This document shows positions 29,001 through 47,063 of a stretch of DNA of 64,000 nt, piece by piece (the stretch's first letter is position 1; each line of letters begins with the position of its first letter). Position numbers and translations under genes: made by a program. The notes beneath the pieces were generated by a model. It was not told the origin of the DNA. It was given only the letters and a program-made list of their open reading frames with translations, and did no database searches. Source of the DNA: Tetradesmus obliquus (Eukaryota; Chlorophyta; Chlorophyceae; Sphaeropleales; Scenedesmaceae); contig CP126196.1 of NCBI GenBank assembly GCA_030272155.1, positions 2,294,001 through 2,358,000 on the forward strand. Reading direction: 5' to 3'.

Positions 29001-31518
29001 TATCAATAGAGCTGCAGCTGTGTATGTGACTTTGCTGCTTGCACCTGCCACTCGGCTTCCAGTGTGTGAAGCGAGCGCAACACTGTACAAGCCTGTGTTT
29101 GTGCTGCAGCCGCAGGTTGCTGTATGTTATCGCATCATGAGGTGCCAGGCATGTTCTGACTGCTGCTTTGTCAGTGCAGGAGGGCCTGCTACCGCCAGAC
29201 GCTGTGCAGCAGCAGCAGCACCGCCGGTGGCAGCAGCAGCAGCCTCAAGGACCAGCATGGCAGCAAGACAGCAGCAGCAGCGGCGGCTGGTCTAGCGAGC
29301 CCTGGCAGCAGCAGCAGCAGCAGTGGGGTGCTCCTACCACGCCTCCGCCACCTCCACCACCCTCAGCAGGCGCTCTGCCACGCTACAGTGAGACACAGGT
29401 AAAGCAGGCACTGCACATGCACGCTACAGTGAGACACAGGTAAAGCAGGCACTGCACATGCACGCTACAGTGAGACACAGGTAAAGCAGGCACTGCACAT
29501 GCACGCTACAGTGAGACACAGGTAAAGCAGGCACTGCACATGCACGCTACAGTGAGACACAGGTAAAGCAGGCACTGCACATGCACGCTACAGTGAGACA
29601 CAGGTAAAGCAGGCACTGCACATGCACTGCCTCATATGCTGCTAGTGGGCTGTTTACAGAACGAGCAGCTGTAAGAAGCCGAAACATCACCCGACCATAT
29701 CCTGTCAAGCGCCGGCTTGCGCGGTTGTTGAAATGCACAGACGGATGGCCTGCCCGCCCTTCCTAAAAAGTTTCTGCTGCCGCCGCTGCTGCTGCTGCTG
29801 CCGCCGCTGCTGCTGCTGCTGCCGCCCCCACCGCCGCCGCTGCTGCTGCTGCTGCTGCTGTAGCCACAGGCAGGCGTCTGTGGTGACCCGCTGTGCCCCT
29901 GCGGCCAGGGCTGCTGGGGCAAGCAGCGGCCCGGGCTGCGCAGCGTGAGGCTGCCAGAGGCCCCTGGGGGCATCAGCATTGAGCTGCGTGACAGCATGCC
30001 CAGCTGGAGGAGGCGGCAGATGCAGGAGGCCCTCATGTGAGTTGGTTGGACACCTGTACCCTGCATCGCCATCTTGCGCAATGTACGGGGTCAGCTTGGT
30101 GTGGGTTTTTGGCGCGCTGGTCAGTTGCGTGCACAACAGACAGCCGGCAGCGGCAATGGCGAGGCCTTGGCTGCTTTGGTTGGCACCATCAGACTCCTGA
30201 CAGCATGCCGGGCTAAAGATCTTAGCTGCTGCTGCGCTGCTGTGATGTGTGCTCCTTGCAGCTGGGTCAACCACACCGGCACGCTGCAGCTGCCGCGGGT
30301 CAAGTTCCAGCTGTCGCCGCGTGAGGAGGCCACCAACCCTTTTGCCGCACCACAGCGGCTTATTGTGGGACCCGTGACCTACAGCCTGACACGGTGCGTG
30401 GCTGGCTGGCATTGCGCTGGTCTAGTTTTGCAGCAAGTCAGTTACAAGGCTGGACCTAGCAACCGTGAACTCACTCTGTTTTGATTGAGATCACACTGCA
30501 TTAGTGCGGCAGGCCTGCATCTGCGGAGTTGTTGCAGCCGTTTGCAGCTGAGTGCATCTGCATCGTCTGTGTTTGATTGGGCTGTACGTGTAGAGATGAT
30601 CTCTGGTGGCAGGTATGCAGAGCTCCTGCATACCTGCCAACACAGCTATGGTATCAGCTGCTACCTGACTCTGCTGCTGTCTGTGTGCATCGCTGCATTG
30701 CACCACAGGCGCGTCAAGGTGCCGGGGGACAGCGAGCAGCTGCGCCTCACGCGCACCGCGCTGCCGCTGCGGCTGGCGTGGGCGCTGACGGTGCACCGCA
30801 GCCAGGGCATGAGCGTGGGCAAACTCAAGGTGCACCTGGAGAGGGCCTTTGGGCCTGGCATGGTTTACGTGGCATTATCACGCTGCACCAGTTTAGCGGG
30901 CCTGCAGGTGGGTGGTGAGCGTGCCAAGGTTTGCGGCTGTCCGGAGGTTTTAGGTTTCAATGTTTGGGCAAGATAGCGGTGCACCTGGAGTGGGCGTTTG
31001 GGCCTGGCATGGTGTACGTGGCGCTGAGCAGGTGCACCAGTTTAGCGGGGCTGCAGGTGCGGCGACTGGGCTGTGTTATGTCTAAATAACTTTGGGGAGG
31101 GTTTGAGCAGGTGGAGCAGCATCATGTGGCTGTCTATATGTTGTTTATTTCGCTGTCACCTGGAGAATGCTTTTGGACCCGGCATGGTCTACGTGGCGCT
31201 GAGCCGCTGCACCAGCCTGGCGGGGCTGCAGGTGGGTATGCTGTGCGGCTCAGCTGTGTTACGAAAAGCGGGTCGCAGTTTGCTGGCATGTTGAGGGTGG
31301 TGGTTGATGGCGTTGCAGAGGCGTGCATGTTCAGTAACGGCATGTGGCGAGCTACAAGTGCCTTCCGCTGTTTTTGACACGTCGTGCATGCATGGTTAAT
31401 GTGTTTGCAGGTGGTGGGCAAGGTGAAGCAGCCGGAGTGTGACGAGGATGTGAGGCGCTTCTACAGCTTCATAGAGGCAGAGGAGGCATGGCTGGCAGCA
31501 GCAGCAAACAACACCTGA
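22121..31518 (+). CDS. PIF1: PIF1-family DNA helicase with giant low-complexity insertion
   Basis: The 14 exons are 22121-22153, 22406-22607, 22931-23023, 23339-23526, 24209-24325, 24826-27162, 27504-27650, 28438-28638, 28737-28835, 29180-29398, 29870-30036, 30262-30393, 30709-30907 and 31411-31518; 4242 nt encode 1413 aa. Superfamily 1B motifs in order: I GGAGVGKS (79-86), Ia TASTGTAAVNVGGSTLHSF, II VDEISMVD (159-166), PFGG then III VGDFFQLSPV (215-224), RQPFRQ (to 990), DDGILPTELFPNNA, LKLKPQAQ/VVLLWNLN, and near the end LAWALTVHRSQGMS and YVALSRCTSLAGL. PIF1 unwinds 5'-3' DNA and G-quadruplexes and acts at telomeres, forks and mitochondria. Residues ~225-955 are a Q/A/S/D-rich insertion in one 2337-nt exon, doubling the usual size. 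A second insertion (PPPPPPP and a Cys-rich part) lies at about 1140-1268. Exon choice among echoes was decided by phase and family motifs. Confidence 0.85.
23184..23236 (+). repeat. Echo of PIF1 exon 4 start
   Basis: A copy of the exon 4 acceptor and its first ~50 bp (motif Ia region), 155 bp upstream of the real exon at 23339. One change alters the frame-critical part (CTGCTGG for CTGCCGTG). Confidence 0.75.
23643..23760 (+). repeat. Echo of PIF1 exon 4 end (Walker B)
   Basis: A ~118-bp copy of 23409-23526, including the VDEVSMVD coding stretch and the exon-end donor (GTGAG). It has an in-frame TAG at the GTGGAAGTAG position, so it cannot code. Confidence 0.8.
24061..24112 (+). repeat. Echo of PIF1 exon 5 start
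   Basis: A diverged copy of the exon 5 acceptor and its first ~50 bp (the VDYVARYLRGWRLQW region), 148 bp upstream of the real exon. Confidence 0.7.
24275..24524 (+). repeat. 51-bp minisatellite at PIF1 exon 5 end
   Basis: The last 51 bp of exon 5 (24275-24325, 17 codons ending PFGGMQ) are followed by one 46-bp partial copy and three full copies at 24372, 24423 and 24474. The first and last copies are both followed by the same donor (GTGCGAGGTG at 24326 and 24525). The 46-bp copy breaks the frame, so only the first donor keeps the protein open. Confidence 0.9.
27285..27446 (+). repeat. Two echoes of PIF1 exon 7 start
   Basis: 27285-27325 repeats the acceptor and start of exon 7 (NGPELLVMLG for NEPELLAMLG), and 27402-27446 repeats the next part (LGEVPLGL for LGEVRQGL). 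Both lie upstream of the real exon 7 (27504) and neither continues in frame. Confidence 0.65.
27711..27820 (+). repeat. Two echoes of PIF1 exon 7 end with donor
   Basis: The exon end GAGCTGTTCCCCAACAAC..CTG|GTGAG recurs at about 27711-27738 and, more diverged, at about 27790-27820. Both lie downstream of the true donor at 27651. Confidence 0.7.
27938..28376 (+). repeat. Three echoes of PIF1 exon 8
   Basis: Copies at about 27938-28050, 28135-28240 and 28315-28376 repeat the start of exon 8 (VDRKNEE..AQLPGPEL), each preceded by a CAG acceptor. The first two also include CIDRCRLAEAD. Only the fourth copy (28438) runs on to the family motif LKLKPQAQ and a donor in phase. Confidence 0.8.
29381..29625 (+). 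repeat. 41-bp minisatellite carrying six 5' splice sites
   Basis: Six near-perfect tandem copies span the end of PIF1 exon 10 and the start of the intron. Each contains GAGACACAG|GTAAAG, giving candidate donors at 29399, 29440, 29481, 29522, 29563 and 29604. The period is not a multiple of three. The first donor is the one whose phase fits exon 11. Confidence 0.95.
30976..31232 (+). repeat. Two echoes of PIF1 exon 13 end
   Basis: The last ~80 bp of exon 13 (helicase motif with YVALSRCTSLAGLQ and donor) recur at about 30976-31058 and 31152-31232. Neither has a credible acceptor in front, so they look intronic. Confidence 0.8.
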
Positions 31519-31728: not shown

Positions 31729-32218
31729 GCTTTGAAATTTCAGTGCAGCCTGTGCCATCCTGAGGATGGTGTGCACTAGCCGGTGCACGTGCAGCTGCCC
31801 CTGGTTCTGCACTGGCGCAAGGTCTGCGTGGCGTGGCGGATGGCCAGCTCATGAACAGCCTGCCAGGGTAGAGAGCAGAGGGGCATGAGCCAACACGTGA
31901 GGCACAGGTGAGGTGCGCATTGCTGTGAATACTCAAGTACTGCAACAGTAGTGACGCTCGCCAGTGCTGGTGATGACACTGCTGCTGATCAAGAGGGGGG
32001 GTCCGCTTGTAAAGTATAAGGGTGCTACCCTCAGCTGTTGAGGCTCCATGGCTATAGTTGCGGCATGATATGTGCTTGAAGGTCCAGCCAAGCGTAGAGC
32101 ACTGCAGTACCATTGATGGTCATCTCGGATCAGCCATGGCATGACAGGCCTGACCGACAAGCGGCCTGCAGCTGAGAGCAGAGCAATGATTGTGCTAAGC
32201 TGGATAAACATTCAATGC
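31519..32218. other. Helicase 3' flank up to the transposon array
   Basis: Two CAG-rich runs (about 31535-31590 and 31698-31728) and TGTAA strings at 31637 and 31693 that could serve as polyadenylation signals for the helicase. No gene is seen. The array begins at 32219. Confidence 0.5.
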
Positions 32219-32860
32219 ACTGTTGTTGTAGCGGGGCACAGGTGTGCGCCAGTGCCAGTCCTCTTCACCAGCACTGAACCAGCCCATGTAGGATTCCTTG
32301 CTCAAGCAGATCACCTTCTCATCCACCCACACCACAGCAGCCTTGTCAGCTTGCAGCCGCGCCTTATTTTCTGCGCTGACGTCGATTCTGCTCTGCCTGT
32401 GCTGGTCATCCAGGTAGGCCCTGTCGCGCACAACCCCATACTTAAAGCGGGGGTCAAACTCCTTGAGGTTGTTGGTCAGGGTCTCCGGAGTGATGCCGGC
32501 GTCCGTCACGATGTTGTGCACCACCGCGCTCTCAGCAATCAGCTGCTCCGCTGAGGTGTACGGACCCTGCCTGCCGGCCAACCACCAGTTGCGGGCCTCG
32601 ACATAGCAAGCAGTTACCTGCCGCTCTGTCAAAACCTTGTGGCGCCCGCTGCTGTGGGCGCAACCCTCAACCACGCCGTCGTCACCCAGGCGTGGGCCCC
32701 ATATTTGAACGTATTCACCGGGGTTGCTGGGCAGGTCGTAGTGTGCAGCTTGCAGGCGCTTGCGGAACTCTGCTGTGGCGTCAACTAGATTACCAGAACT
32801 TGCCCTCCAGGCAAGGCCAGCAGTGTATTGGTAGACTGGTGGATAGGTCATATGCTGCAT
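32219..32860 (-). pseudogene. Truncated Tc1/mariner-like transposase
   Basis: Identical to residues 1-215 of the complete copies (start at 32860), then cut after YNNSA at the array edge. The first catalytic Asp (WVDEK, Asp180) is retained. The second Asp, the Glu and the intron are missing, so it cannot be active. Confidence 0.9.
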
Positions 32861-33042
32861 GTATCACGCCAAACCCTAGTTAGTACTGAACCTTGGACAT
32901 GTGGCGTGTTGGTGCTCATTGTGCATGGACGGGGGCAGCACTCTGAGGCGGGCACAGCAGCGCAGCCCTGAGTTGATTGGCTACATCACATTTAAAATGC
33001 AATGCTGCGCTGCGATGCTACAGCATTAAATTGTATTTTGCC
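32219..33042. mobile_element. Truncated transposon body (copy 0), left edge of array
   Basis: From 32219 this sequence matches 35901-36724 of copy 1, while everything to the left is unrelated. It retains the 5' part of the transposase gene and its upstream flank but lacks the nuclease gene and transposase exon 2. Confidence 0.9.
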
Positions 33043-33759
33043 TCACTGGGTCTAGTAAAGAATCTCGCGCCATATATGCAGGGATGTAGCCAAGATCCCT
33101 ATGCATCTATTGGCGTGCTCAATTGATGCGCTGCATGCGTGTGTGCTCTGGAAAACGAGTTTACGTATGTCCCTCCTCGCAGTTAAAAACGGCGGGGATA
33201 GGCAGGTTTTGCTGCGGCTGCGTTGCTTCGAGTGACACATAAAAATATGGAATGTGTTTGCATGCAGCAGCAGGGCTGGCTGTGTGTTGTGTGTGGCGAT
33301 CCAGGGCTGTGATGCGCTTGCCATGCCAAAGTGAACTCGTGATGCTTGCCCTGCTTGATTGAGCTGAGTGCCGAAAACATGTTTTCTGAGTTTCGAGATT
33401 TTGGTTGTGTTGCTGTTGTGAGGCGTGCTGCAGCAGCAGCCCAGCTTGTTCACCTGATGCCTGCAAATAGCTCCTGTGGCCTTGCTGTGCTGCTGCGTGC
33501 TGATGAGAGCCCTGTGCCACGGGGGGGTTTCGATGCTATTGTGTGGTGCAAGTGTGGGTGTAAAACAGGCGTCACTGAGGGGTGTCACCAGCAGCAGCAG
33601 CAGGCAGCAGGTTGGCAGTGTCTGCATTGGCCCTGTTCAAGGCTTCATTGTGTGCTCAAGGTAACCACGGTTATACATACGAAGCTGCGTTGGATAGTAT
33701 TGCGGCCGTGCGCAACAGGCTGCATGTGAACGTGTGAGATTCTTTTCTCGACCCAGTGA
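33043..33759. mobile_element. Element X1: 717-bp TIR element, non-autonomous
   Basis: It begins TCACTGGGTCTAGTAAAG and its other end is the near-perfect inverse (reverse complement TCACTGGGTCGAGAAAAG, continuing to GAATCTC), giving ~24-bp terminal inverted repeats with two mismatches. Frames inside (for example 33346-33729 plus, 33052-33627 minus) show no recognisable domain. Junctions without X carry only TCTGA at this place. No target-site duplication is visible. Confidence 0.75.
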
Positions 33760-34010
33760 AGCAGCACCACTTTTGGGGCCCCGGTTTAGGGCGCAAGTTG
33801 TCAGTGTGGCACAAGCCTGTAAATTCGTGATATAATTCATGGATGCAGTTCTTCTGTATGTGCTTAACATACGTGATGCCGCTTAGCGCGACAGCCTTAA
33901 TACGCACAGCTCTGCCGTGGTGAAGTTCCAGTGCAGGCAGTTTCCCTGTGGACCTCGCGATATTCGCCTCTTCGCCTGTCTGCTTCCGCCAAATTTACAA
34001 TCGAAATCGA

Positions 34011-35780
34011 ATGAGTGGTCACGCCGGAGCATTGCCGCAGCAAGCAGCCTCCGCAATGACAACAGCGGAGCCCGGGATGTCAACACCGGTGAGCTGCTGT
34101 TGCTGCCCGGGCGCTCGTTGTGCTGCCATAACAATCAATCATGTGAGCAGTATATTAATAAGGATTGATCAGCTGCGCGTATATCAGCAGCACCGCGGCC
34201 GTGCTCCGCAGTTTGACCATGAAGCAGCAGCTGTCTCCCTGCAGCCACAGCTTGCTGCACTACAACACCAAGGAACGCCTTGACAGCCAAACTTGCGTGC
34301 CCAAATCATCAAAATACACTTCTTCATGCTACAAATGCTTCTGCTGCTTGCAGGGCATGCTTGAACTGCAGCCAGAAAGCCAACAACCTTGCAGCAGCAG
34401 CAGTACGAGCCAGCAGTGCGGCTCTGGCTGCCAGCACCACATGGAGACCAGGAGGAAAGGCAAAGCAGCCAACAAAGGTATGCTTATACTACAGCATATA
34501 GTGTGCTTCACAACTAGAATAGCAGCTGCTGTGCATCTCAGCTGTAGGTGATGGCAGCCACAGCAAGGTGCCAGGGCAGCACTTGTTGCGCGCAACTTGT
34601 GTGCACTCTGTCTACCTGAAAGGGAATGGTGCATACAGGCCAGCATTGTCAATGACTGCCTGGTAGGTGTATGGCAAGCTGTCCACATCAGCCTGGATTG
34701 AAGCAGGCTGTACATCATAGAACAAGTGCTCCAGCTTATCCTGGCACTGCTGCGGGGTCGGCTTGCCCGGCCACAAGCTGCGGCGCCATGCCTGCAGTGC
34801 CTGGCTCAGGTATGCATGCACATGCTCGACCACCTTGTGCAGATCAGGACTGAGGGGACACAGGGCAAACCTGTGGTCTTTCGACCAGATGCCGTGCTCG
34901 TCCAGCTTGGCACGCGCGTGTGCGCTGTCGTTGTCACTGGACAACAGCCAGATGGGCTCCTCTCCTGGGTTCTGCTGCGTGTACGCCTGCCACAGCTCGT
35001 GCAGCCTCTCACGCAGATCCCGGATGCAATCCTCATACTCATCTGCTGTCATGCCCTTTGCTGGCTCACCCTTGCTGGTCTGCAGGCACAGGGCAGGTTG
35101 CAGGCAGCACACCACCAGCAGCAAAACCCGTGGGCAGGCCAAAGGGGTGGTTCAGCAAGGAAGCCCAGCAGAGGTGGAGGCCAGGTTTAAACCACATGCT
35201 GCTTGAGAGCCATGCAGCCTACAGCAGCAGCAAGCAGTGCTTTACATGCAGGTGCAAGAACAGCAAGCATGTCAGACTGCTGGCACTGCAAACCGTGTCA
35301 CGCGGGGACGCTTGCTTCAAGCGTCATGTGTGCAGCAAGAAGGGCAGCAAGTACGAGAAGCAGCTGTATGCTTTGCTGAACAGCAACGCAGCTGTCACCG
35401 CATACGCTGTGGAGGCAGTGGCTATGGGCAGGAAGATACAGCTGCAGATACCTAACAGCAAGCAGGGGCTGTGGCTGAACAGGCACAGATGGGATGCAGT
35501 GCTGCTGCAGCCGGATAGCTTGCTGATTGAGGTGCAAGGAGAGCAGCACATAGACAAGGAGGACGGCAAGCGCAACAACAGGGGTGACACACTAGCAGAC
35601 AGGCAGGCCAAGGACCAGGCATTGGCAGATGCAGCGCTGGCCGACGGTTTCAGTGTGCTGTGGCTGCACCCAGGTGCTGCAGATGATGTGCGGGGCCGCG
35701 CCAGGCGCTGGGCAGCAGCTGTGCAGGTGGCGCTGGAGCATGTTGCTGCCAAGCAGCGCCCCAAGCTGTTCAAGGCCTGA
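34011..35780 (+). CDS. AT-hook, Cys-rich, Vsr/EDxHD-like PD-(D/E)XK nuclease (copy 1)
   Basis: Exons 34011-34088, 34354-34477 and 35104-35780 total 879 nt, encoding 292 aa; phases 0 and 1 fit. The protein has an AT-hook-like GRPKG (78-82), a Cys/His cluster (C113, C116, C118, C138, H142, C144) that may bind zinc, then a domain laid out like Vsr and DUF559/EDxHD nucleases: KYE Glu152, RWD Asp198, LIEVQGEQH (Glu210, Gln212, His216), RQAKD Asp238 and GFSVLWLHP. ExQ stands where ExK is usual. Family knowledge says this fold nicks or cuts DNA; a role in transposition or array growth is inference. The last exon lies wholly inside the transposase intron on the other strand. A candidate intermediate exon near 34160-34275 was not used because no GT donor follows it. 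Confidence 0.72.
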
Positions 35781-36542
35781 ACTCACCCGGTAATCACAGC
35801 CGTCTCTGTCTGCTGCCATGCCGCTTGTGCCAGTGAAGAATTTGATCCACACAGGACCCAGCAGGTAGTTGACGCCAATGATGTACTTCAGCTTTGCAGC
35901 GCTGTTGTTGTAGCGGGGCACAGGTGTGCGCCAGTGCCAGTCCTCTTCACCAGCACTGAACCAGCCCATGTAGGATTCCTTGCTCAAGCAGATCACCTTC
36001 TCATCCACCCACACCACAGCAGCCTTGTCAGCTTGCAGCCGCGCCTTATTTTCTGCGCTGACGTCGATTCTGCTCTGCCTGTGCTGGTCATCCAGGTAGG
36101 CCCTGTCGCGCACAACCCCATACTTAAAGCGGGGGTCAAACTCCTTGAGGTTGTTGGTCAGGGTCTCCGGAGTGATGCCGGCGTCCGTCACGATGTTGTG
36201 CACCACCGCGCTCTCAGCAATCAGCTGCTCCGCTGAGGTGTACGGACCCTGCCTGCCGGCCAACCACCAGTTGCGGGCCTCGACATAGCAAGCAGTTACC
36301 TGCCGCTCTGTCAAAACCTTGTGGCGCCCGCTGCTGTGGGCGCAACCCTCAACCACGCCGTCGTCACCCAGGCGTGGGCCCCATATTTGAACGTATTCAC
36401 CGGGGTTGCTGGGCAGGTCGTAGTGTGCAGCTTGCAGGCGCTTGCGGAACTCTGCTGTGGCGTCAACTAGATTACCAGAACTTGCCCTCCAGGCAAGGCC
36501 AGCAGTGTATTGGTAGACTGGTGGATAGGTCATATGCTGCAT
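34612..36542 (-). CDS. Tc1/mariner-like DD35E transposase (copy 1)
   Basis: Exons 36542-35787 and 35079-34612 give 407 aa; the intron (35786-35080) is GTGAGT..CTGCAG in phase 0. The catalytic triad reads WVDEK (Asp180), SSDNDSAH (Asp301) and SPDLHKVVEHV (Glu337), with 35 residues between the second Asp and the Glu. DNDxxH and SPDL..xEH are signatures of the IS630/Tc1/mariner superfamily, which inserts at TA. The N-terminal half should hold the helix-turn-helix DNA-binding part but is not clearly readable. The stop is TAG at 34614-34612; a GTAGAC overlapping it could be a donor to a further exon. The intron contains the coding exon of the opposite-strand nuclease. Confidence 0.85.
35080..35103. 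promoter_or_regulatory. 24-bp double 3' splice site used on both strands
   Basis: CTGCAG read on the minus strand (35085-35080) is the acceptor of transposase exon 2, and TTGCAG on the plus strand (35098-35103) is the acceptor of nuclease exon 3. The two coding exons diverge from this 24-bp segment. Both acceptors fit their donors in phase. Confidence 0.7.
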
Positions 36543-36980
36543 GTATCACGCCAAACCCTAGTTAGTACTGAACCTTGGACATGTGGCGTGTTGGTGCTCA
36601 TTGTGCATGGACGGGGGCAGCACTCTGAGGCGGGCACAGCAGCGCAGCCCTGAGTTGATTGGCTACATCACATTTAAAATGCAATGCTGCGCTGCGATGC
36701 TACAGCATTAAATTGTATTTTGCCTCTGAAGCAGCACCACTTTTGGGGCCCCGGTTTAGGGCGCAAGTTGTCAGTGTGGCACAAGCCTGTAAATTCGTGA
36801 TATAATTCATGGATGCAGTTCTTCTGTATGTGCTTAACATACGTGATGCCGCTTAGCGCGACAGCCTTAATACGCACAGCTCTGCCGTGGTGAAGTTCCA
36901 GTGCAGGCAGTTTCCCTGTGGACCTCGCGATATTCGCCTCTTCGCCTGTCTGCTTCCGCCAAATTTACAATCGAAATCGA

Positions 36981-38750
36981 ATGAGTGGTCACGCCGGAGC
37001 ATTGCCGCAGCAAGCAGCCTCCGCAATGACAACAGCGGAGCCCGGGATGTCAACACCGGTGAGCTGCTGTTGCTGCCCGGGCGCTCGTTGTGCTGCCATA
37101 ACAATCAATCATGTGAGCAGTATATTAATAAGGATTGATCAGCTGCGCGTATATCAGCAGCACCGCGGCCGTGCTCCGCAGTTTGACCATGAAGCAGCAG
37201 CTGTCTCCCTGCAGCCACAGCTTGCTGCACTACAACACCAAGGAACGCCTTGACAGCCAAACTTGCGTGCCCAAATCATCAAAATACACTTCTTCATGCT
37301 ACAAATGCTTCTGCTGCTTGCAGGGCATGCTTGAACTGCAGCCAGAAAGCCAACAACCTTGCAGCAGCAGCAGTACGAGCCAGCAGTGCGGCTCTGGCTG
37401 CCAGCACCACATGGAGACCAGGAGGAAAGGCAAAGCAGCCAACAAAGGTATGCTTATACTACAGCATATAGTGTGCTTCACAACTAGAATAGCAGCTGCT
37501 GTGCATCTCAGCTGTAGGTGATGGCAGCCACAGCAAGGTGCCAGGGCAGCACTTGTTGCGCGCAACTTGTGTGCACTCTGTCTACCTGAAAGGGAATGGT
37601 GCATACAGGCCAGCATTGTCAATGACTGCCTGGTAGGTGTATGGCAAGCTGTCCACATCAGCCTGGATTGAAGCAGGCTGTACATCATAGAACAAGTGCT
37701 CCAGCTTATCCTGGCACTGCTGCGGGGTCGGCTTGCCCGGCCACAAGCTGCGGCGCCATGCCTGCAGTGCCTGGCTCAGGTATGCATGCACATGCTCGAC
37801 CACCTTGTGCAGATCAGGACTGAGGGGACACAGGGCAAACCTGTGGTCTTTCGACCAGATGCCGTGCTCGTCCAGCTTGGCACGCGCGTGTGCGCTGTCG
37901 TTGTCACTGGACAACAGCCAGATGGGCTCCTCTCCTGGGTTCTGCTGCGTGTACGCCTGCCACAGCTCGTGCAGCCTCTCACGCAGATCCCGGATGCAAT
38001 CCTCATACTCATCTGCTGTCATGCCCTTTGCTGGCTCACCCTTGCTGGTCTGCAGGCACAGGGCAGGTTGCAGGCAGCACACCACCAGCAGCAAAACCCG
38101 TGGGCAGGCCAAAGGGGTGGTTCAGCAAGGAAGCCCAGCAGAGGTGGAGGCCAGGTTTAAACCACATGCTGCTTGAGAGCCATGCAGCCTACAGCAGCAG
38201 CAAGCAGTGCTTTACATGCAGGTGCAAGAACAGCAAGCATGTCAGACTGCTGGCACTGCAAACCGTGTCACGCGGGGACGCTTGCTTCAAGCGTCATGTG
38301 TGCAGCAAGAAGGGCAGCAAGTACGAGAAGCAGCTGTATGCTTTGCTGAACAGCAACGCAGCTGTCACCGCATACGCTGTGGAGGCAGTGGCTATGGGCA
38401 GGAAGATACAGCTGCAGATACCTAACAGCAAGCAGGGGCTGTGGCTGAACAGGCACAGATGGGATGCAGTGCTGCTGCAGCCGGATAGCTTGCTGATTGA
38501 GGTGCAAGGAGAGCAGCACATAGACAAGGAGGACGGCAAGCGCAACAACAGGGGTGACACACTAGCAGACAGGCAGGCCAAGGACCAGGCATTGGCAGAT
38601 GCAGCGCTGGCCGACGGTTTCAGTGTGCTGTGGCTGCACCCAGGTGCTGCAGATGATGTGCGGGGCCGCGCCAGGCGCTGGGCAGCAGCTGTGCAGGTGG
38701 CGCTGGAGCATGTTGCTGCCAAGCAGCGCCCCAAGCTGTTCAAGGCCTGA
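36981..38750 (+). CDS. Vsr/EDxHD-like nuclease (copy 2)
   Basis: Exons 36981-37058, 37324-37447 and 38074-38750. The 292-aa product is identical to that of copy 1, with all candidate catalytic residues intact. Confidence 0.72.
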
Positions 38751-39512
38751 ACTCACCCGGTAATCACAGCCGTCTCTGTCTGCTGCCATGCCGCTTGTGC
38801 CAGTGAAGAATTTGATCCACACAGGACCCAGCAGGTAGTTGACGCCAATGATGTACTTCAGCTTTGCAGCGCTGTTGTTGTAGCGGGGCACAGGTGTGCG
38901 CCAGTGCCAGTCCTCTTCACCAGCACTGAACCAGCCCATGTAGGATTCCTTGCTCAAGCAGATCACCTTCTCATCCACCCACACCACAGCAGCCTTGTCA
39001 GCTTGCAGCCGCGCCTTATTTTCTGCGCTGACGTCGATTCTGCTCTGCCTGTGCTGGTCATCCAGGTAGGCCCTGTCGCGCACAACCCCATACTTAAAGC
39101 GGGGGTCAAACTCCTTGAGGTTGTTGGTCAGGGTCTCCGGAGTGATGCCGGCGTCCGTCACGATGTTGTGCACCACCGCGCTCTCAGCAATCAGCTGCTC
39201 CGCTGAGGTGTACGGACCCTGCCTGCCGGCCAACCACCAGTTGCGGGCCTCGACATAGCAAGCAGTTACCTGCCGCTCTGTCAAAACCTTGTGGCGCCCG
39301 CTGCTGTGGGCGCAACCCTCAACCACGCCGTCGTCACCCAGGCGTGGGCCCCATATTTGAACGTATTCACCGGGGTTGCTGGGCAGGTCGTAGTGTGCAG
39401 CTTGCAGGCGCTTGCGGAACTCTGCTGTGGCGTCAACTAGATTACCAGAACTTGCCCTCCAGGCAAGGCCAGCAGTGTATTGGTAGACTGGTGGATAGGT
39501 CATATGCTGCAT
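37582..39512 (-). CDS. Tc1/mariner-like transposase (copy 2)
   Basis: Exons 39512-38757 and 38049-37582. The 407-aa product is identical to that of copy 1, with an intact D-D-E triad. Confidence 0.85.
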
Positions 39513-39694
39513 GTATCACGCCAAACCCTAGTTAGTACTGAACCTTGGACATGTGGCGTGTTGGTGCTCATTGTGCATGGACGGGGGCAGCACTCTGAGG
39601 CGGGCACAGCAGCGCAGCCCTGAGTTGATTGGCTACATCACATTTAAAATGCAATGCTGCGCTGCGATGCTACAGCATTAAATTGTATTTTGCC

Positions 39695-40411
39695 TCACTG
39701 GGTCTAGTAAAGAATCTCGCGCCATATATGCAGGGATGTAGCCAAGATCCCTATGCATCTATTGGCGTGCTCAATTGATGCGCTGCATGCGTGTGTGCTC
39801 TGGAAAACGAGTTTACGTATGTCCCTCCTCGCAGTTAAAAACGGCGGGGATAGGCAGGTTTTGCTGCGGCTGCGTTGCTTCGAGTGACACATAAAAATAT
39901 GGAATGTGTTTGCATGCAGCAGCAGGGCTGGCTGTGTGTTGTGTGTGGCGATCCAGGGCTGTGATGCGCTTGCCATGCCAAAGTGAACTCGTGATGCTTG
40001 CCCTGCTTGATTGAGCTGAGTGCCGAAAACATGTTTTCTGAGTTTCGAGATTTTGGTTGTGTTGCTGTTGTGAGGCGTGCTGCAGCAGCAGCCCAGCTTG
40101 TTCACCTGATGCCTGCAAATAGCTCCTGTGGCCTTGCTGTGCTGCTGCGTGCTGATGAGAGCCCTGTGCCACGGGGGGGTTTCGATGCTATTGTGTGGTG
40201 CAAGTGTGGGTGTAAAACAGGCGTCACTGAGGGGTGTCACCAGCAGCAGCAGCAGGCAGCAGGTTGGCAGTGTCTGCATTGGCCCTGTTCAAGGCTTCAT
40301 TGTGTGCTCAAGGTAACCACGGTTATACATACGAAGCTGCGTTGGATAGTATTGCGGCCGTGCGCAACAGGCTGCATGTGAACGTGTGAGATTCTTTTCT
40401 CGACCCAGTGA
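39695..40411. mobile_element. Element X2: 717-bp TIR element
   Basis: Same as X1, shifted by exactly 6652 bp, and sits between bodies 2 and 3. Confidence 0.75.
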
Positions 40412-40662
40412 AGCAGCACCACTTTTGGGGCCCCGGTTTAGGGCGCAAGTTGTCAGTGTGGCACAAGCCTGTAAATTCGTGATATAATTCATGGATGCAG
40501 TTCTTCTGTATGTGCTTAACATACGTGATGCCGCTTAGCGCGACAGCCTTAATACGCACAGCTCTGCCGTGGTGAAGTTCCAGTGCAGGCAGTTTCCCTG
40601 TGGACCTCGCGATATTCGCCTCTTCGCCTGTCTGCTTCCGCCAAATTTACAATCGAAATCGA

Positions 40663-42432
40663 ATGAGTGGTCACGCCGGAGCATTGCCGCAGCAAGCAGC
40701 CTCCGCAATGACAACAGCGGAGCCCGGGATGTCAACACCGGTGAGCTGCTGTTGCTGCCCGGGCGCTCGTTGTGCTGCCATAACAATCAATCATGTGAGC
40801 AGTATATTAATAAGGATTGATCAGCTGCGCGTATATCAGCAGCACCGCGGCCGTGCTCCGCAGTTTGACCATGAAGCAGCAGCTGTCTCCCTGCAGCCAC
40901 AGCTTGCTGCACTACAACACCAAGGAACGCCTTGACAGCCAAACTTGCGTGCCCAAATCATCAAAATACACTTCTTCATGCTACAAATGCTTCTGCTGCT
41001 TGCAGGGCATGCTTGAACTGCAGCCAGAAAGCCAACAACCTTGCAGCAGCAGCAGTACGAGCCAGCAGTGCGGCTCTGGCTGCCAGCACCACATGGAGAC
41101 CAGGAGGAAAGGCAAAGCAGCCAACAAAGGTATGCTTATACTACAGCATATAGTGTGCTTCACAACTAGAATAGCAGCTGCTGTGCATCTCAGCTGTAGG
41201 TGATGGCAGCCACAGCAAGGTGCCAGGGCAGCACTTGTTGCGCGCAACTTGTGTGCACTCTGTCTACCTGAAAGGGAATGGTGCATACAGGCCAGCATTG
41301 TCAATGACTGCCTGGTAGGTGTATGGCAAGCTGTCCACATCAGCCTGGATTGAAGCAGGCTGTACATCATAGAACAAGTGCTCCAGCTTATCCTGGCACT
41401 GCTGCGGGGTCGGCTTGCCCGGCCACAAGCTGCGGCGCCATGCCTGCAGTGCCTGGCTCAGGTATGCATGCACATGCTCGACCACCTTGTGCAGATCAGG
41501 ACTGAGGGGACACAGGGCAAACCTGTGGTCTTTCGACCAGATGCCGTGCTCGTCCAGCTTGGCACGCGCGTGTGCGCTGTCGTTGTCACTGGACAACAGC
41601 CAGATGGGCTCCTCTCCTGGGTTCTGCTGCGTGTACGCCTGCCACAGCTCGTGCAGCCTCTCACGCAGATCCCGGATGCAATCCTCATACTCATCTGCTG
41701 TCATGCCCTTTGCTGGCTCACCCTTGCTGGTCTGCAGGCACAGGGCAGGTTGCAGGCAGCACACCACCAGCAGCAAAACCCGTGGGCAGGCCAAAGGGGT
41801 GGTTCAGCAAGGAAGCCCAGCAGAGGTGGAGGCCAGGTTTAAACCACATGCTGCTTGAGAGCCATGCAGCCTACAGCAGCAGCAAGCAGTGCTTTACATG
41901 CAGGTGCAAGAACAGCAAGCATGTCAGACTGCTGGCACTGCAAACCGTGTCACGCGGGGACGCTTGCTTCAAGCGTCATGTGTGCAGCAAGAAGGGCAGC
42001 AAGTACGAGAAGCAGCTGTATGCTTTGCTGAACAGCAACGCAGCTGTCACCGCATACGCTGTGGAGGCAGTGGCTATGGGCAGGAAGATACAGCTGCAGA
42101 TACCTAACAGCAAGCAGGGGCTGTGGCTGAACAGGCACAGATGGGATGCAGTGCTGCTGCAGCCGGATAGCTTGCTGATTGAGGTGCAAGGAGAGCAGCA
42201 CATAGACAAGGAGGACGGCAAGCGCAACAACAGGGGTGACACACTAGCAGACAGGCAGGCCAAGGACCAGGCATTGGCAGATGCAGCGCTGGCCGACGGT
42301 TTCAGTGTGCTGTGGCTGCACCCAGGTGCTGCAGATGATGTGCGGGGCCGCGCCAGGCGCTGGGCAGCAGCTGTGCAGGTGGCGCTGGAGCATGTTGCTG
42401 CCAAGCAGCGCCCCAAGCTGTTCAAGGCCTGA
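40663..42432 (+). CDS. Vsr/EDxHD-like nuclease (copy 3)
   Basis: Exons 40663-40740, 41006-41129 and 41756-42432; product identical to copy 1. Confidence 0.72.
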
Positions 42433-43194
42433 ACTCACCCGGTAATCACAGCCGTCTCTGTCTGCTGCCATGCCGCTTGTGCCAGTGAAGAATTTGATCC
42501 ACACAGGACCCAGCAGGTAGTTGACGCCAATGATGTACTTCAGCTTTGCAGCGCTGTTGTTGTAGCGGGGCACAGGTGTGCGCCAGTGCCAGTCCTCTTC
42601 ACCAGCACTGAACCAGCCCATGTAGGATTCCTTGCTCAAGCAGATCACCTTCTCATCCACCCACACCACAGCAGCCTTGTCAGCTTGCAGCCGCGCCTTA
42701 TTTTCTGCGCTGACGTCGATTCTGCTCTGCCTGTGCTGGTCATCCAGGTAGGCCCTGTCGCGCACAACCCCATACTTAAAGCGGGGGTCAAACTCCTTGA
42801 GGTTGTTGGTCAGGGTCTCCGGAGTGATGCCGGCGTCCGTCACGATGTTGTGCACCACCGCGCTCTCAGCAATCAGCTGCTCCGCTGAGGTGTACGGACC
42901 CTGCCTGCCGGCCAACCACCAGTTGCGGGCCTCGACATAGCAAGCAGTTACCTGCCGCTCTGTCAAAACCTTGTGGCGCCCGCTGCTGTGGGCGCAACCC
43001 TCAACCACGCCGTCGTCACCCAGGCGTGGGCCCCATATTTGAACGTATTCACCGGGGTTGCTGGGCAGGTCGTAGTGTGCAGCTTGCAGGCGCTTGCGGA
43101 ACTCTGCTGTGGCGTCAACTAGATTACCAGAACTTGCCCTCCAGGCAAGGCCAGCAGTGTATTGGTAGACTGGTGGATAGGTCATATGCTGCAT
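41264..43194 (-). CDS. Tc1/mariner-like transposase (copy 3)
   Basis: Exons 43194-42439 and 41731-41264; product identical to copy 1. Confidence 0.85.
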
Positions 43195-43632
43195 GTATCA
43201 CGCCAAACCCTAGTTAGTACTGAACCTTGGACATGTGGCGTGTTGGTGCTCATTGTGCATGGACGGGGGCAGCACTCTGAGGCGGGCACAGCAGCGCAGC
43301 CCTGAGTTGATTGGCTACATCACATTTAAAATGCAATGCTGCGCTGCGATGCTACAGCATTAAATTGTATTTTGCCTCTGAAGCAGCACCACTTTTGGGG
43401 CCCCGGTTTAGGGCGCAAGTTGTCAGTGTGGCACAAGCCTGTAAATTCGTGATATAATTCATGGATGCAGTTCTTCTGTATGTGCTTAACATACGTGATG
43501 CCGCTTAGCGCGACAGCCTTAATACGCACAGCTCTGCCGTGGTGAAGTTCCAGTGCAGGCAGTTTCCCTGTGGACCTCGCGATATTCGCCTCTTCGCCTG
43601 TCTGCTTCCGCCAAATTTACAATCGAAATCGA

Positions 43633-45402
43633 ATGAGTGGTCACGCCGGAGCATTGCCGCAGCAAGCAGCCTCCGCAATGACAACAGCGGAGCCCGGGAT
43701 GTCAACACCGGTGAGCTGCTGTTGCTGCCCGGGCGCTCGTTGTGCTGCCATAACAATCAATCATGTGAGCAGTATATTAATAAGGATTGATCAGCTGCGC
43801 GTATATCAGCAGCACCGCGGCCGTGCTCCGCAGTTTGACCATGAAGCAGCAGCTGTCTCCCTGCAGCCACAGCTTGCTGCACTACAACACCAAGGAACGC
43901 CTTGACAGCCAAACTTGCGTGCCCAAATCATCAAAATACACTTCTTCATGCTACAAATGCTTCTGCTGCTTGCAGGGCATGCTTGAACTGCAGCCAGAAA
44001 GCCAACAACCTTGCAGCAGCAGCAGTACGAGCCAGCAGTGCGGCTCTGGCTGCCAGCACCACATGGAGACCAGGAGGAAAGGCAAAGCAGCCAACAAAGG
44101 TATGCTTATACTACAGCATATAGTGTGCTTCACAACTAGAATAGCAGCTGCTGTGCATCTCAGCTGTAGGTGATGGCAGCCACAGCAAGGTGCCAGGGCA
44201 GCACTTGTTGCGCGCAACTTGTGTGCACTCTGTCTACCTGAAAGGGAATGGTGCATACAGGCCAGCATTGTCAATGACTGCCTGGTAGGTGTATGGCAAG
44301 CTGTCCACATCAGCCTGGATTGAAGCAGGCTGTACATCATAGAACAAGTGCTCCAGCTTATCCTGGCACTGCTGCGGGGTCGGCTTGCCCGGCCACAAGC
44401 TGCGGCGCCATGCCTGCAGTGCCTGGCTCAGGTATGCATGCACATGCTCGACCACCTTGTGCAGATCAGGACTGAGGGGACACAGGGCAAACCTGTGGTC
44501 TTTCGACCAGATGCCGTGCTCGTCCAGCTTGGCACGCGCGTGTGCGCTGTCGTTGTCACTGGACAACAGCCAGATGGGCTCCTCTCCTGGGTTCTGCTGC
44601 GTGTACGCCTGCCACAGCTCGTGCAGCCTCTCACGCAGATCCCGGATGCAATCCTCATACTCATCTGCTGTCATGCCCTTTGCTGGCTCACCCTTGCTGG
44701 TCTGCAGGCACAGGGCAGGTTGCAGGCAGCACACCACCAGCAGCAAAACCCGTGGGCAGGCCAAAGGGGTGGTTCAGCAAGGAAGCCCAGCAGAGGTGGA
44801 GGCCAGGTTTAAACCACATGCTGCTTGAGAGCCATGCAGCCTACAGCAGCAGCAAGCAGTGCTTTACATGCAGGTGCAAGAACAGCAAGCATGTCAGACT
44901 GCTGGCACTGCAAACCGTGTCACGCGGGGACGCTTGCTTCAAGCGTCATGTGTGCAGCAAGAAGGGCAGCAAGTACGAGAAGCAGCTGTATGCTTTGCTG
45001 AACAGCAACGCAGCTGTCACCGCATACGCTGTGGAGGCAGTGGCTATGGGCAGGAAGATACAGCTGCAGATACCTAACAGCAAGCAGGGGCTGTGGCTGA
45101 ACAGGCACAGATGGGATGCAGTGCTGCTGCAGCCGGATAGCTTGCTGATTGAGGTGCAAGGAGAGCAGCACATAGACAAGGAGGACGGCAAGCGCAACAA
45201 CAGGGGTGACACACTAGCAGACAGGCAGGCCAAGGACCAGGCATTGGCAGATGCAGCGCTGGCCGACGGTTTCAGTGTGCTGTGGCTGCACCCAGGTGCT
45301 GCAGATGATGTGCGGGGCCGCGCCAGGCGCTGGGCAGCAGCTGTGCAGGTGGCGCTGGAGCATGTTGCTGCCAAGCAGCGCCCCAAGCTGTTCAAGGCCT
45401 GA
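43633..45402 (+). CDS. Vsr/EDxHD-like nuclease (copy 4)
   Basis: Exons 43633-43710, 43976-44099 and 44726-45402; product identical to copy 1. Confidence 0.72.
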
Positions 45403-46164
45403 ACTCACCCGGTAATCACAGCCGTCTCTGTCTGCTGCCATGCCGCTTGTGCCAGTGAAGAATTTGATCCACACAGGACCCAGCAGGTAGTTGACGCCAA
45501 TGATGTACTTCAGCTTTGCAGCGCTGTTGTTGTAGCGGGGCACAGGTGTGCGCCAGTGCCAGTCCTCTTCACCAGCACTGAACCAGCCCATGTAGGATTC
45601 CTTGCTCAAGCAGATCACCTTCTCATCCACCCACACCACAGCAGCCTTGTCAGCTTGCAGCCGCGCCTTATTTTCTGCGCTGACGTCGATTCTGCTCTGC
45701 CTGTGCTGGTCATCCAGGTAGGCCCTGTCGCGCACAACCCCATACTTAAAGCGGGGGTCAAACTCCTTGAGGTTGTTGGTCAGGGTCTCCGGAGTGATGC
45801 CGGCGTCCGTCACGATGTTGTGCACCACCGCGCTCTCAGCAATCAGCTGCTCCGCTGAGGTGTACGGACCCTGCCTGCCGGCCAACCACCAGTTGCGGGC
45901 CTCGACATAGCAAGCAGTTACCTGCCGCTCTGTCAAAACCTTGTGGCGCCCGCTGCTGTGGGCGCAACCCTCAACCACGCCGTCGTCACCCAGGCGTGGG
46001 CCCCATATTTGAACGTATTCACCGGGGTTGCTGGGCAGGTCGTAGTGTGCAGCTTGCAGGCGCTTGCGGAACTCTGCTGTGGCGTCAACTAGATTACCAG
46101 AACTTGCCCTCCAGGCAAGGCCAGCAGTGTATTGGTAGACTGGTGGATAGGTCATATGCTGCAT
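44234..46164 (-). CDS. Tc1/mariner-like transposase (copy 4)
   Basis: Exons 46164-45409 and 44701-44234; product identical to copy 1. Confidence 0.85.
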
Positions 46165-46346
46165 GTATCACGCCAAACCCTAGTTAGTACTGAACCTTGG
46201 ACATGTGGCGTGTTGGTGCTCATTGTGCATGGACGGGGGCAGCACTCTGAGGCGGGCACAGCAGCGCAGCCCTGAGTTGATTGGCTACATCACATTTAAA
46301 ATGCAATGCTGCGCTGCGATGCTACAGCATTAAATTGTATTTTGCC

Positions 46347-47063
46347 TCACTGGGTCTAGTAAAGAATCTCGCGCCATATATGCAGGGATGTAGCCAAGAT
46401 CCCTATGCATCTATTGGCGTGCTCAATTGATGCGCTGCATGCGTGTGTGCTCTGGAAAACGAGTTTACGTATGTCCCTCCTCGCAGTTAAAAACGGCGGG
46501 GATAGGCAGGTTTTGCTGCGGCTGCGTTGCTTCGAGTGACACATAAAAATATGGAATGTGTTTGCATGCAGCAGCAGGGCTGGCTGTGTGTTGTGTGTGG
46601 CGATCCAGGGCTGTGATGCGCTTGCCATGCCAAAGTGAACTCGTGATGCTTGCCCTGCTTGATTGAGCTGAGTGCCGAAAACATGTTTTCTGAGTTTCGA
46701 GATTTTGGTTGTGTTGCTGTTGTGAGGCGTGCTGCAGCAGCAGCCCAGCTTGTTCACCTGATGCCTGCAAATAGCTCCTGTGGCCTTGCTGTGCTGCTGC
46801 GTGCTGATGAGAGCCCTGTGCCACGGGGGGGTTTCGATGCTATTGTGTGGTGCAAGTGTGGGTGTAAAACAGGCGTCACTGAGGGGTGTCACCAGCAGCA
46901 GCAGCAGGCAGCAGGTTGGCAGTGTCTGCATTGGCCCTGTTCAAGGCTTCATTGTGTGCTCAAGGTAACCACGGTTATACATACGAAGCTGCGTTGGATA
47001 GTATTGCGGCCGTGCGCAACAGGCTGCATGTGAACGTGTGAGATTCTTTTCTCGACCCAGTGA
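46347..47063. mobile_element. Element X3: 717-bp TIR element at the right array edge
   Basis: Same as X1 and X2. Its terminal GACCCAGTGA is followed directly by unrelated DNA starting TACGTG, so the end of the whole array coincides with the end of an X inverted repeat and with a TA dinucleotide. Confidence 0.75.

Follow-up and report, generated by a model that had tools for sequence, protein, structure and literature searches.

Opposite-strand transposase and predicted nuclease genes in a composite-like repeat element of the green alga Tetradesmus obliquus

The window analysed here is a 64,000-nucleotide stretch of the Tetradesmus obliquus genome (assembly GCA_030272155.1, contig CP126196.1, positions 2,294,001 to 2,358,000). 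Its segment 32217-47062 is a left-truncated tandem array composed of two modules, a ~3-kb coding unit (U; 2967 bp in this array) and a ~715-bp repeat (S), arranged in the order partial U, S, U, U, S, U, U, S. U carries a transposase gene on the minus strand and, within the intron of that gene, a nuclease frame on the plus strand (Table 1). A preliminary description of this DNA had delimited a transposon with two reciprocally nested genes at 33760..36724. The gene pair is real, but this stretch represents one U of the tandem array, and the neighbouring 715-bp S repeats are part of the element. Related copies were searched for in one genome, the T. obliquus assembly (104.66 Mb, 17 contigs), and are assigned to lineages A, B, C15, C16, D, and E; all gene models were built from sequence alone.

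The two transposase exons join into a coding sequence of 1224 nt, interrupted by a single 707-nt intron and translated into 407 amino acids with no internal stop, as described before. The catalytic core of lineage A, to which the window array belongs, is of the DD35E type, with an SPD..E region. No Pfam profile matched the lineage A transposase; it is tied at 31-32% identity to lineage D, in which exon 2 matches DDE_3 (28.9 bits, with a cut-off of 28.6) and also IS630, the latter below the cut-off. The predicted protein is an IS630-like DDE transposase. The intron is placed identically with respect to the protein in all six lineages compared, with GTGAGT as donor and a CAG acceptor immediately ahead of the corresponding residue. 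The acceptor hexamer CTGCAG (35080-35085 in the window) is self-reverse-complementary in A, B, D, and E and absent in this form from C15 and C16. Read on the plus strand, it makes an in-phase alternative nuclease acceptor in lineage B and, by count, likewise in lineage A, where it ends at 35085, 18 nt before 35104. This palindrome could therefore be usable as an acceptor on both strands.

The main nuclease exon lies wholly in the transposase intron, in agreement with the preliminary description. Length of its open frame alone is weak evidence, as frames of at least 224 codons appeared in 5 of 500 shuffled introns. However, 15 homologous proteins were found, one of them from Scenedesmus sp. NREL 46B-D3, and an antisense frame with 67% protein identity occupies the same intron of lineage B, which is also exactly 707 nt long. 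A chance frame can thus be dismissed. The arrangement extends to six of the six lineages compared, and the gene pair has been retained among transposases that are only ~30% identical; in the units of lineages D and E that were read, the antisense frame in the homologous intron shows the order E, RVDF or RIDF, QADG-x-C-H, D. Ratios of nonsynonymous to synonymous substitution (dN/dS), obtained by NG86 with codon bootstrap for the lineage pairs A/B and D/E, are 0.41 (0.28-0.58) and 0.53 (0.37-0.76) for the nuclease. For the two transposase exons they are 0.52 and 0.46 in A/B and 0.29 and 0.39 in D/E. These values indicate purifying selection on both proteins in both pairs.

Where the nuclease gene begins is less straightforward. 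Upstream of the main exon, the frame stays open on the strand opposite transposase exon 2. The main frame of lineages A, B, and C15 contains no in-frame ATG ahead of a conserved AT-hook-like segment, so that these lineages require either a further exon upstream or a start other than ATG; an upstream Met is present in C16, C16b, D, and E. In both A and B, an upstream exon running from an ATG to a donor site joins the main nuclease exon in phase, giving in the window a two-exon model of 265 amino acids. This 5' exon is weakly conserved between A and B (32% amino acid identity over 37 codons, dN/dS 0.70). With it in place, transposase exon 2 would fall inside a nuclease intron. Reciprocal nesting, as proposed in the preliminary description, is therefore supported but not proven: it is likely in lineages A and B and unproven in the others. 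Of the nuclease gene model proposed at the same time, the main exon stands, while an additional first exon and a length of 292 amino acids are unconfirmed.

A Vsr-like residue pattern had been pointed out in the nuclease, and structure prediction agrees with it. The top structural matches of the lineage A core model are Vsr and the homing nuclease I-Bth0305I, which share a PD-(D/E)XK-type fold. The modelled lineage A nuclease thus resembles the Vsr/EDxHD type. No His-Me finger protein appeared in that list, which by itself does not test for this other fold. A weak profile match (E 0.025) was also obtained to a phage homing endonuclease family.

Table 1. Features of the tandem array in the window.
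Feature	Position	Strand	Remarks
Left-truncated first U	32217..33043	+	matches unit positions 2143-2970 at 99.9%
S, long terminal direct repeat	33044..33758	+	715 bp; inverted ends CACTGGGTC...GACCCAGTG; copies also outside arrays on C4, C15, C10
U, internal coding unit	33759..36725	+	2967 bp; unit of the original finding
Probable nuclease 5' exon	34357..34477	+	ATG to GTATG donor; indirect, from sequence
Transposase exon 2	34612..35079	-	second Asp 301, Glu 337; DD35E
Transposase intron	35080..35786	-	707 nt; GTGAGT...CTGCAG; position common to all six lineages compared
Nuclease main exon	35104..35780	+	Cys cluster, then Vsr-like E..D..ExQ..H..D core; open frame
Transposase exon 1	35787..36542	-	252 codons; first catalytic Asp is residue 180
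CTG scar	36726..36728	+	S-less U-U junction
Second full U	36729..39695	+
S repeat	39696..40410	+
Third full U	40411..43377	+
CTG scar	43378..43380	+
Fourth full U	43381..46347	+
Terminal S	46348..47062	+	right end of the array

S starts with CACTGGGTC and finishes with GACCCAGTG, the inverted match being ~23 bp, and its length ranges from ~690 to 725 bp. No gene was recognised within the repeat. Solo copies of S, located outside arrays, were found on contigs C4, C15, and C10. The lineage B copy on C8 (within 4188500-4194500) is an S-U-S monomer with clean ends, inserted in a satellite of roughly 312-bp period, a setting in which the empty site should be readable. Another S-U-S is found on contig C16 and an S-U-U-S on contig C15, and the array of 16 units on C10 has both boundaries exactly at S termini. 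All these forms, S, S-U-S, S-U-U-S, and (S-U)n-S, have the same kind of inverted termini and short target duplications.

Target duplications were evaluated at insertions with both ends read, excluding the C6 and C2 arrays, truncated at their left ends, and the arrays on C3, C13, and C17. A perfect 3-bp duplication was observed in nine of nine such insertions in lineages A, B, and E: GAG, CCT, and CAC around solo S, TTG around the C10 array, TAG around the C8 monomer, and GGT, ATC, CAC, and AGC around four lineage E monomers. The other two insertions, on contigs C15 and C16, are flanked by 4-bp duplications (CTTT and AGAG) that do not read as 3-bp repeats. The target duplication of Tc1/mariner/IS630 elements is TA, and it was seen in none of these 11 insertions.

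Three further observations concern repetitive DNA next to these modules. Upstream of the window array, a 41-bp tandem repeat is present in six registered copies (29338-29665). The terminal S of the C2 array (L017, 8592-9900) abuts a long TG dinucleotide run. On C10 (5211600-5217600), an S copy is followed by a 1355-bp tandem repeat, the unit of which combines S positions 127-712 with ~769 bp of neighbouring DNA; the 3' part of S seems to have been duplicated in tandem along with its flank.

In U-U junctions that lack S, three or four letters corresponding to the termini of S mark its position. Lineage A junctions have CTG in five cases and CAG in two of the seven examined, both kinds being present in the C2 array, and the single junction read in each of the other lineages has CTG in B, CAG in C15, CAG in E, and CATG in D. 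In lineage B, AGT stands on either side of S and the scar lies between those same two AGT copies, indicating that the junction without S arose by excision and does not represent the site before insertion. The letters may be interpreted as a remnant of S cut 1-2 nt inside its CA...TG ends, with the overlap repaired either way. Scars of CTG, CAG, or CATG would be as expected if S were cut out by the transposase.

Arrays of lineage A are the window array (C6) and those on C10 and C2, while the diverged lineage B forms arrays on C3 and C17. A protein search of the genome with transposase exon 2 gave at least 39 matches of lineage A and at least 78 of lineage B (lower bounds, with 150 of 390 candidates scored). 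The nuclease search gave 39 and 78, respectively, among the matches listed and on the same contigs, with a constant nuclease-to-exon-2 offset where positions were compared by eye. Further pairs were located on contig C15 (two, one exon-2 copy having a stop) and contig C16 (two, one nuclease having two stops), the latter with four extra nuclease matches that are fragments. Nuclease matches of lineages D and E are present on C13, C10, C4, C14, C12, C1, and others (150 of 273 candidates scored). The pair is thus present on several contigs besides that of the window. Lineages A, B, C15, D, and E all include tandem copies in which both genes are present. The largest run among the matches scored is on C17, where at least 61 exon-2 matches extend from 2096583 to 2314206 (~217 kb) in steps of ~3.67 kb with S or ~2.96 kb without it.

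Uniformity within arrays is high. The four full units in C6 are identical, as are five different units sampled from the 16 in C10, and five units in C2 differ by at most two substitutions and a one-base length difference; C6 and C10 are distinguished by 14 sites. Such a pattern would be accounted for by growth in place, by homogenisation, or by the two together. Copies of family A on C16 (1396000-1405900) are positioned head to head, inverted and diverged (98%, 94%, and 88% identity), unlike the clean direct arrays elsewhere.

The composite form, its termini, target duplications, scars, and the conserved gene pair can be followed directly in the assembled DNA. We consider it rather probable that S-U-S is an autonomous composite-like (“paired-end”) DNA transposon, in which the transposase acts on the ends of S and a homing-type nuclease drives the formation of arrays. 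The transposase would recognise the inverted ends of S itself, mobilising S alone or S-U-S, for which support is good, and would also excise S inside arrays. With moderate support, the nuclease would behave as a homing endonuclease and cut inside S or next to it, and repair of the break from a misaligned copy would duplicate S-U units in place, leaving long arrays uniform inside. The nested layout would hold both genes together as one heritable unit. Antisense control between transposase and nuclease, with interplay in splicing of the two strands, is speculative. The two-protein mobile system put forward in the preliminary description is partly supported, and its observation of the nested pair as a whole is partly confirmed.

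Several points weigh against this reading. A link of the nuclease to S, like the activity of both proteins, is presumed, and ordinary unequal crossing-over between S copies could also generate the arrays. For the lineage A nuclease model, Foldseek by itself returned no match at E 0.001; the lineage D model is poor (predicted local distance difference test score, pLDDT, 63), with nothing Vsr-like among the 50 matches listed. Comparing profiles between the two nuclease groups yielded no significant result, and the groups are unjoined by sequence. In all four full units of the window, nuclease codon 73 (window 35322, in the Cys cluster) specifies Arg, where the C10 array and all 13 homologues that span this site have Cys. 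The nuclease of the window array may thus be impaired and not fully working. Finally, the contrast between arrays fails for C10 and C2, which differ at only 0-2 sites; block-wise movement of some arrays, or a very young age, may account for this.

Composite-like transposons of a similar design have been described in animals under the name KolobokP. According to Kojima & Bao (2022; PMC9587614), they combine a transposase, a homing endonuclease, and long terminal direct repeats, and form multimers, for which these authors proposed induced unequal crossover at breaks made by the nuclease. Extending the reading preferred above, the algal element would be a second, independently evolved composite-like lineage, in which the nuclease makes arrays, the transposase moves S or S-U-S, and antisense nesting locks the two genes together, their expression being perhaps mutually exclusive. 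To this fuller scheme we give slightly less than an even chance.

Among the alternatives, it is unlikely, although it fares best, that the nuclease takes part in transposition itself as a TnsA-like partner, responsible for cutting one strand at the ends of S, with the DDE protein cutting or joining the other; arrays would then arise by the ordinary crossing-over mentioned above. Somewhat less likely still, the nuclease might have no role in mobility or arrays and be a host-manipulation or repair protein, involved for instance in mismatch nicking at excision scars or attack on competing elements, with arrays as passive products of recombination. Vsr, the fold of which the lineage A nuclease model matches, is a mismatch-repair nickase, and overlapping S ends could be repaired via an A:A mismatch to give CAG or CTG. 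However, both genes occur together in tandem copies of five lineages, and the same association of a DDE transposase, a nuclease, and direct repeats has also arisen in KolobokP (PMC9587614), which argues for a link. That the tandem arrays are assembly artefacts of really dispersed monomers is highly improbable: copies within arrays are nearly identical and copy number is taken from the assembly, but the C10 array is bounded exactly by S termini with a 3-bp duplication, S-containing and S-less steps are mixed, two scar types coexist in C2, monomers with their own duplications exist beside arrays, and multimers are reported for KolobokP too (PMC9587614).

The element offers a route from a DNA transposon to a gene-bearing satellite array, as illustrated by C17. 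In addition, the conserved nested pair lends itself naturally to testing antisense splicing inside a single mobile element.

With the IS630/Tc1/mariner group, the element shares the DDE core, the SPD..E region, and the DDE_3 match of lineage D. It differs in the duplications at the insertions read, as well as in its long direct repeats, second gene, and composite form. The nuclease shares with Vsr, I-Bth0305I (EDxHD), and DUF559 nucleases the predicted core fold of lineage A and the residue order E, D, ExQ (or DG), H, D, although no significant sequence match to them was obtained for lineage A. ExQGExH replaces DxH, a Cys cluster and an AT-hook-like N-terminus are added, and the protein is encoded by a eukaryotic transposon. 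Tandems of repeat plus passenger between direct copies of a mobile repeat are similarly formed by IS26-type pseudo-compound transposons and translocatable units (discussed in PMC9587614), but there the transposase is located in the repeat, and here in the internal U.

Judged by titles and abstracts of the open-licence PMC papers listed, a search that left Repbase and most subscription papers aside, this architecture was disclosed by PMC9587614 alone, and the word KolobokP occurred in no other of 20 papers listed out of 74. The correspondence to KolobokP as described there includes an internal region between long terminal direct repeats with short inverted ends of their own (~450 or 660 bp there, ~690-725 bp here) and solo repeats. 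Also common to both are multimers of the (LTDR-INT)n-LTDR and LTDR-(INT)n-LTDR types (LTDR, long terminal direct repeat; INT, internal region) that are flanked by short target duplications, internal regions between which single repeats have been lost, and a DDE transposase accompanied by a complementary-strand nuclease. By the same source, the differences are a Kolobok superfamily transposase in contrast to an IS630-like one here (assigned by the DDE_3/IS630 matches of lineage D, not by direct comparison with Kolobok), a His-Me finger (I-PpoI-like) nuclease in contrast to a Vsr-like predicted model, animal hosts in contrast to a green alga, and a nuclease positioned downstream of the transposase in contrast to inside its intron. 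Being outside the superfamily of KolobokP and with no TA duplication in the insertions read, the element is filed under neither KolobokP nor Tc1/mariner. If another kingdom has arrived at this layout with a transposase of another superfamily and a nuclease of another fold, chance is an unlikely explanation for the combination of transposase, nuclease, and long direct repeats. It would then represent a repeatable evolutionary solution, a transposase for jumping and a nuclease for multiplication in place, and the induced-unequal-crossover idea put forward for KolobokP (PMC9587614) would become testable by comparison. The S-U-S element is apparently a second lineage of the KolobokP-type design, of independent origin.
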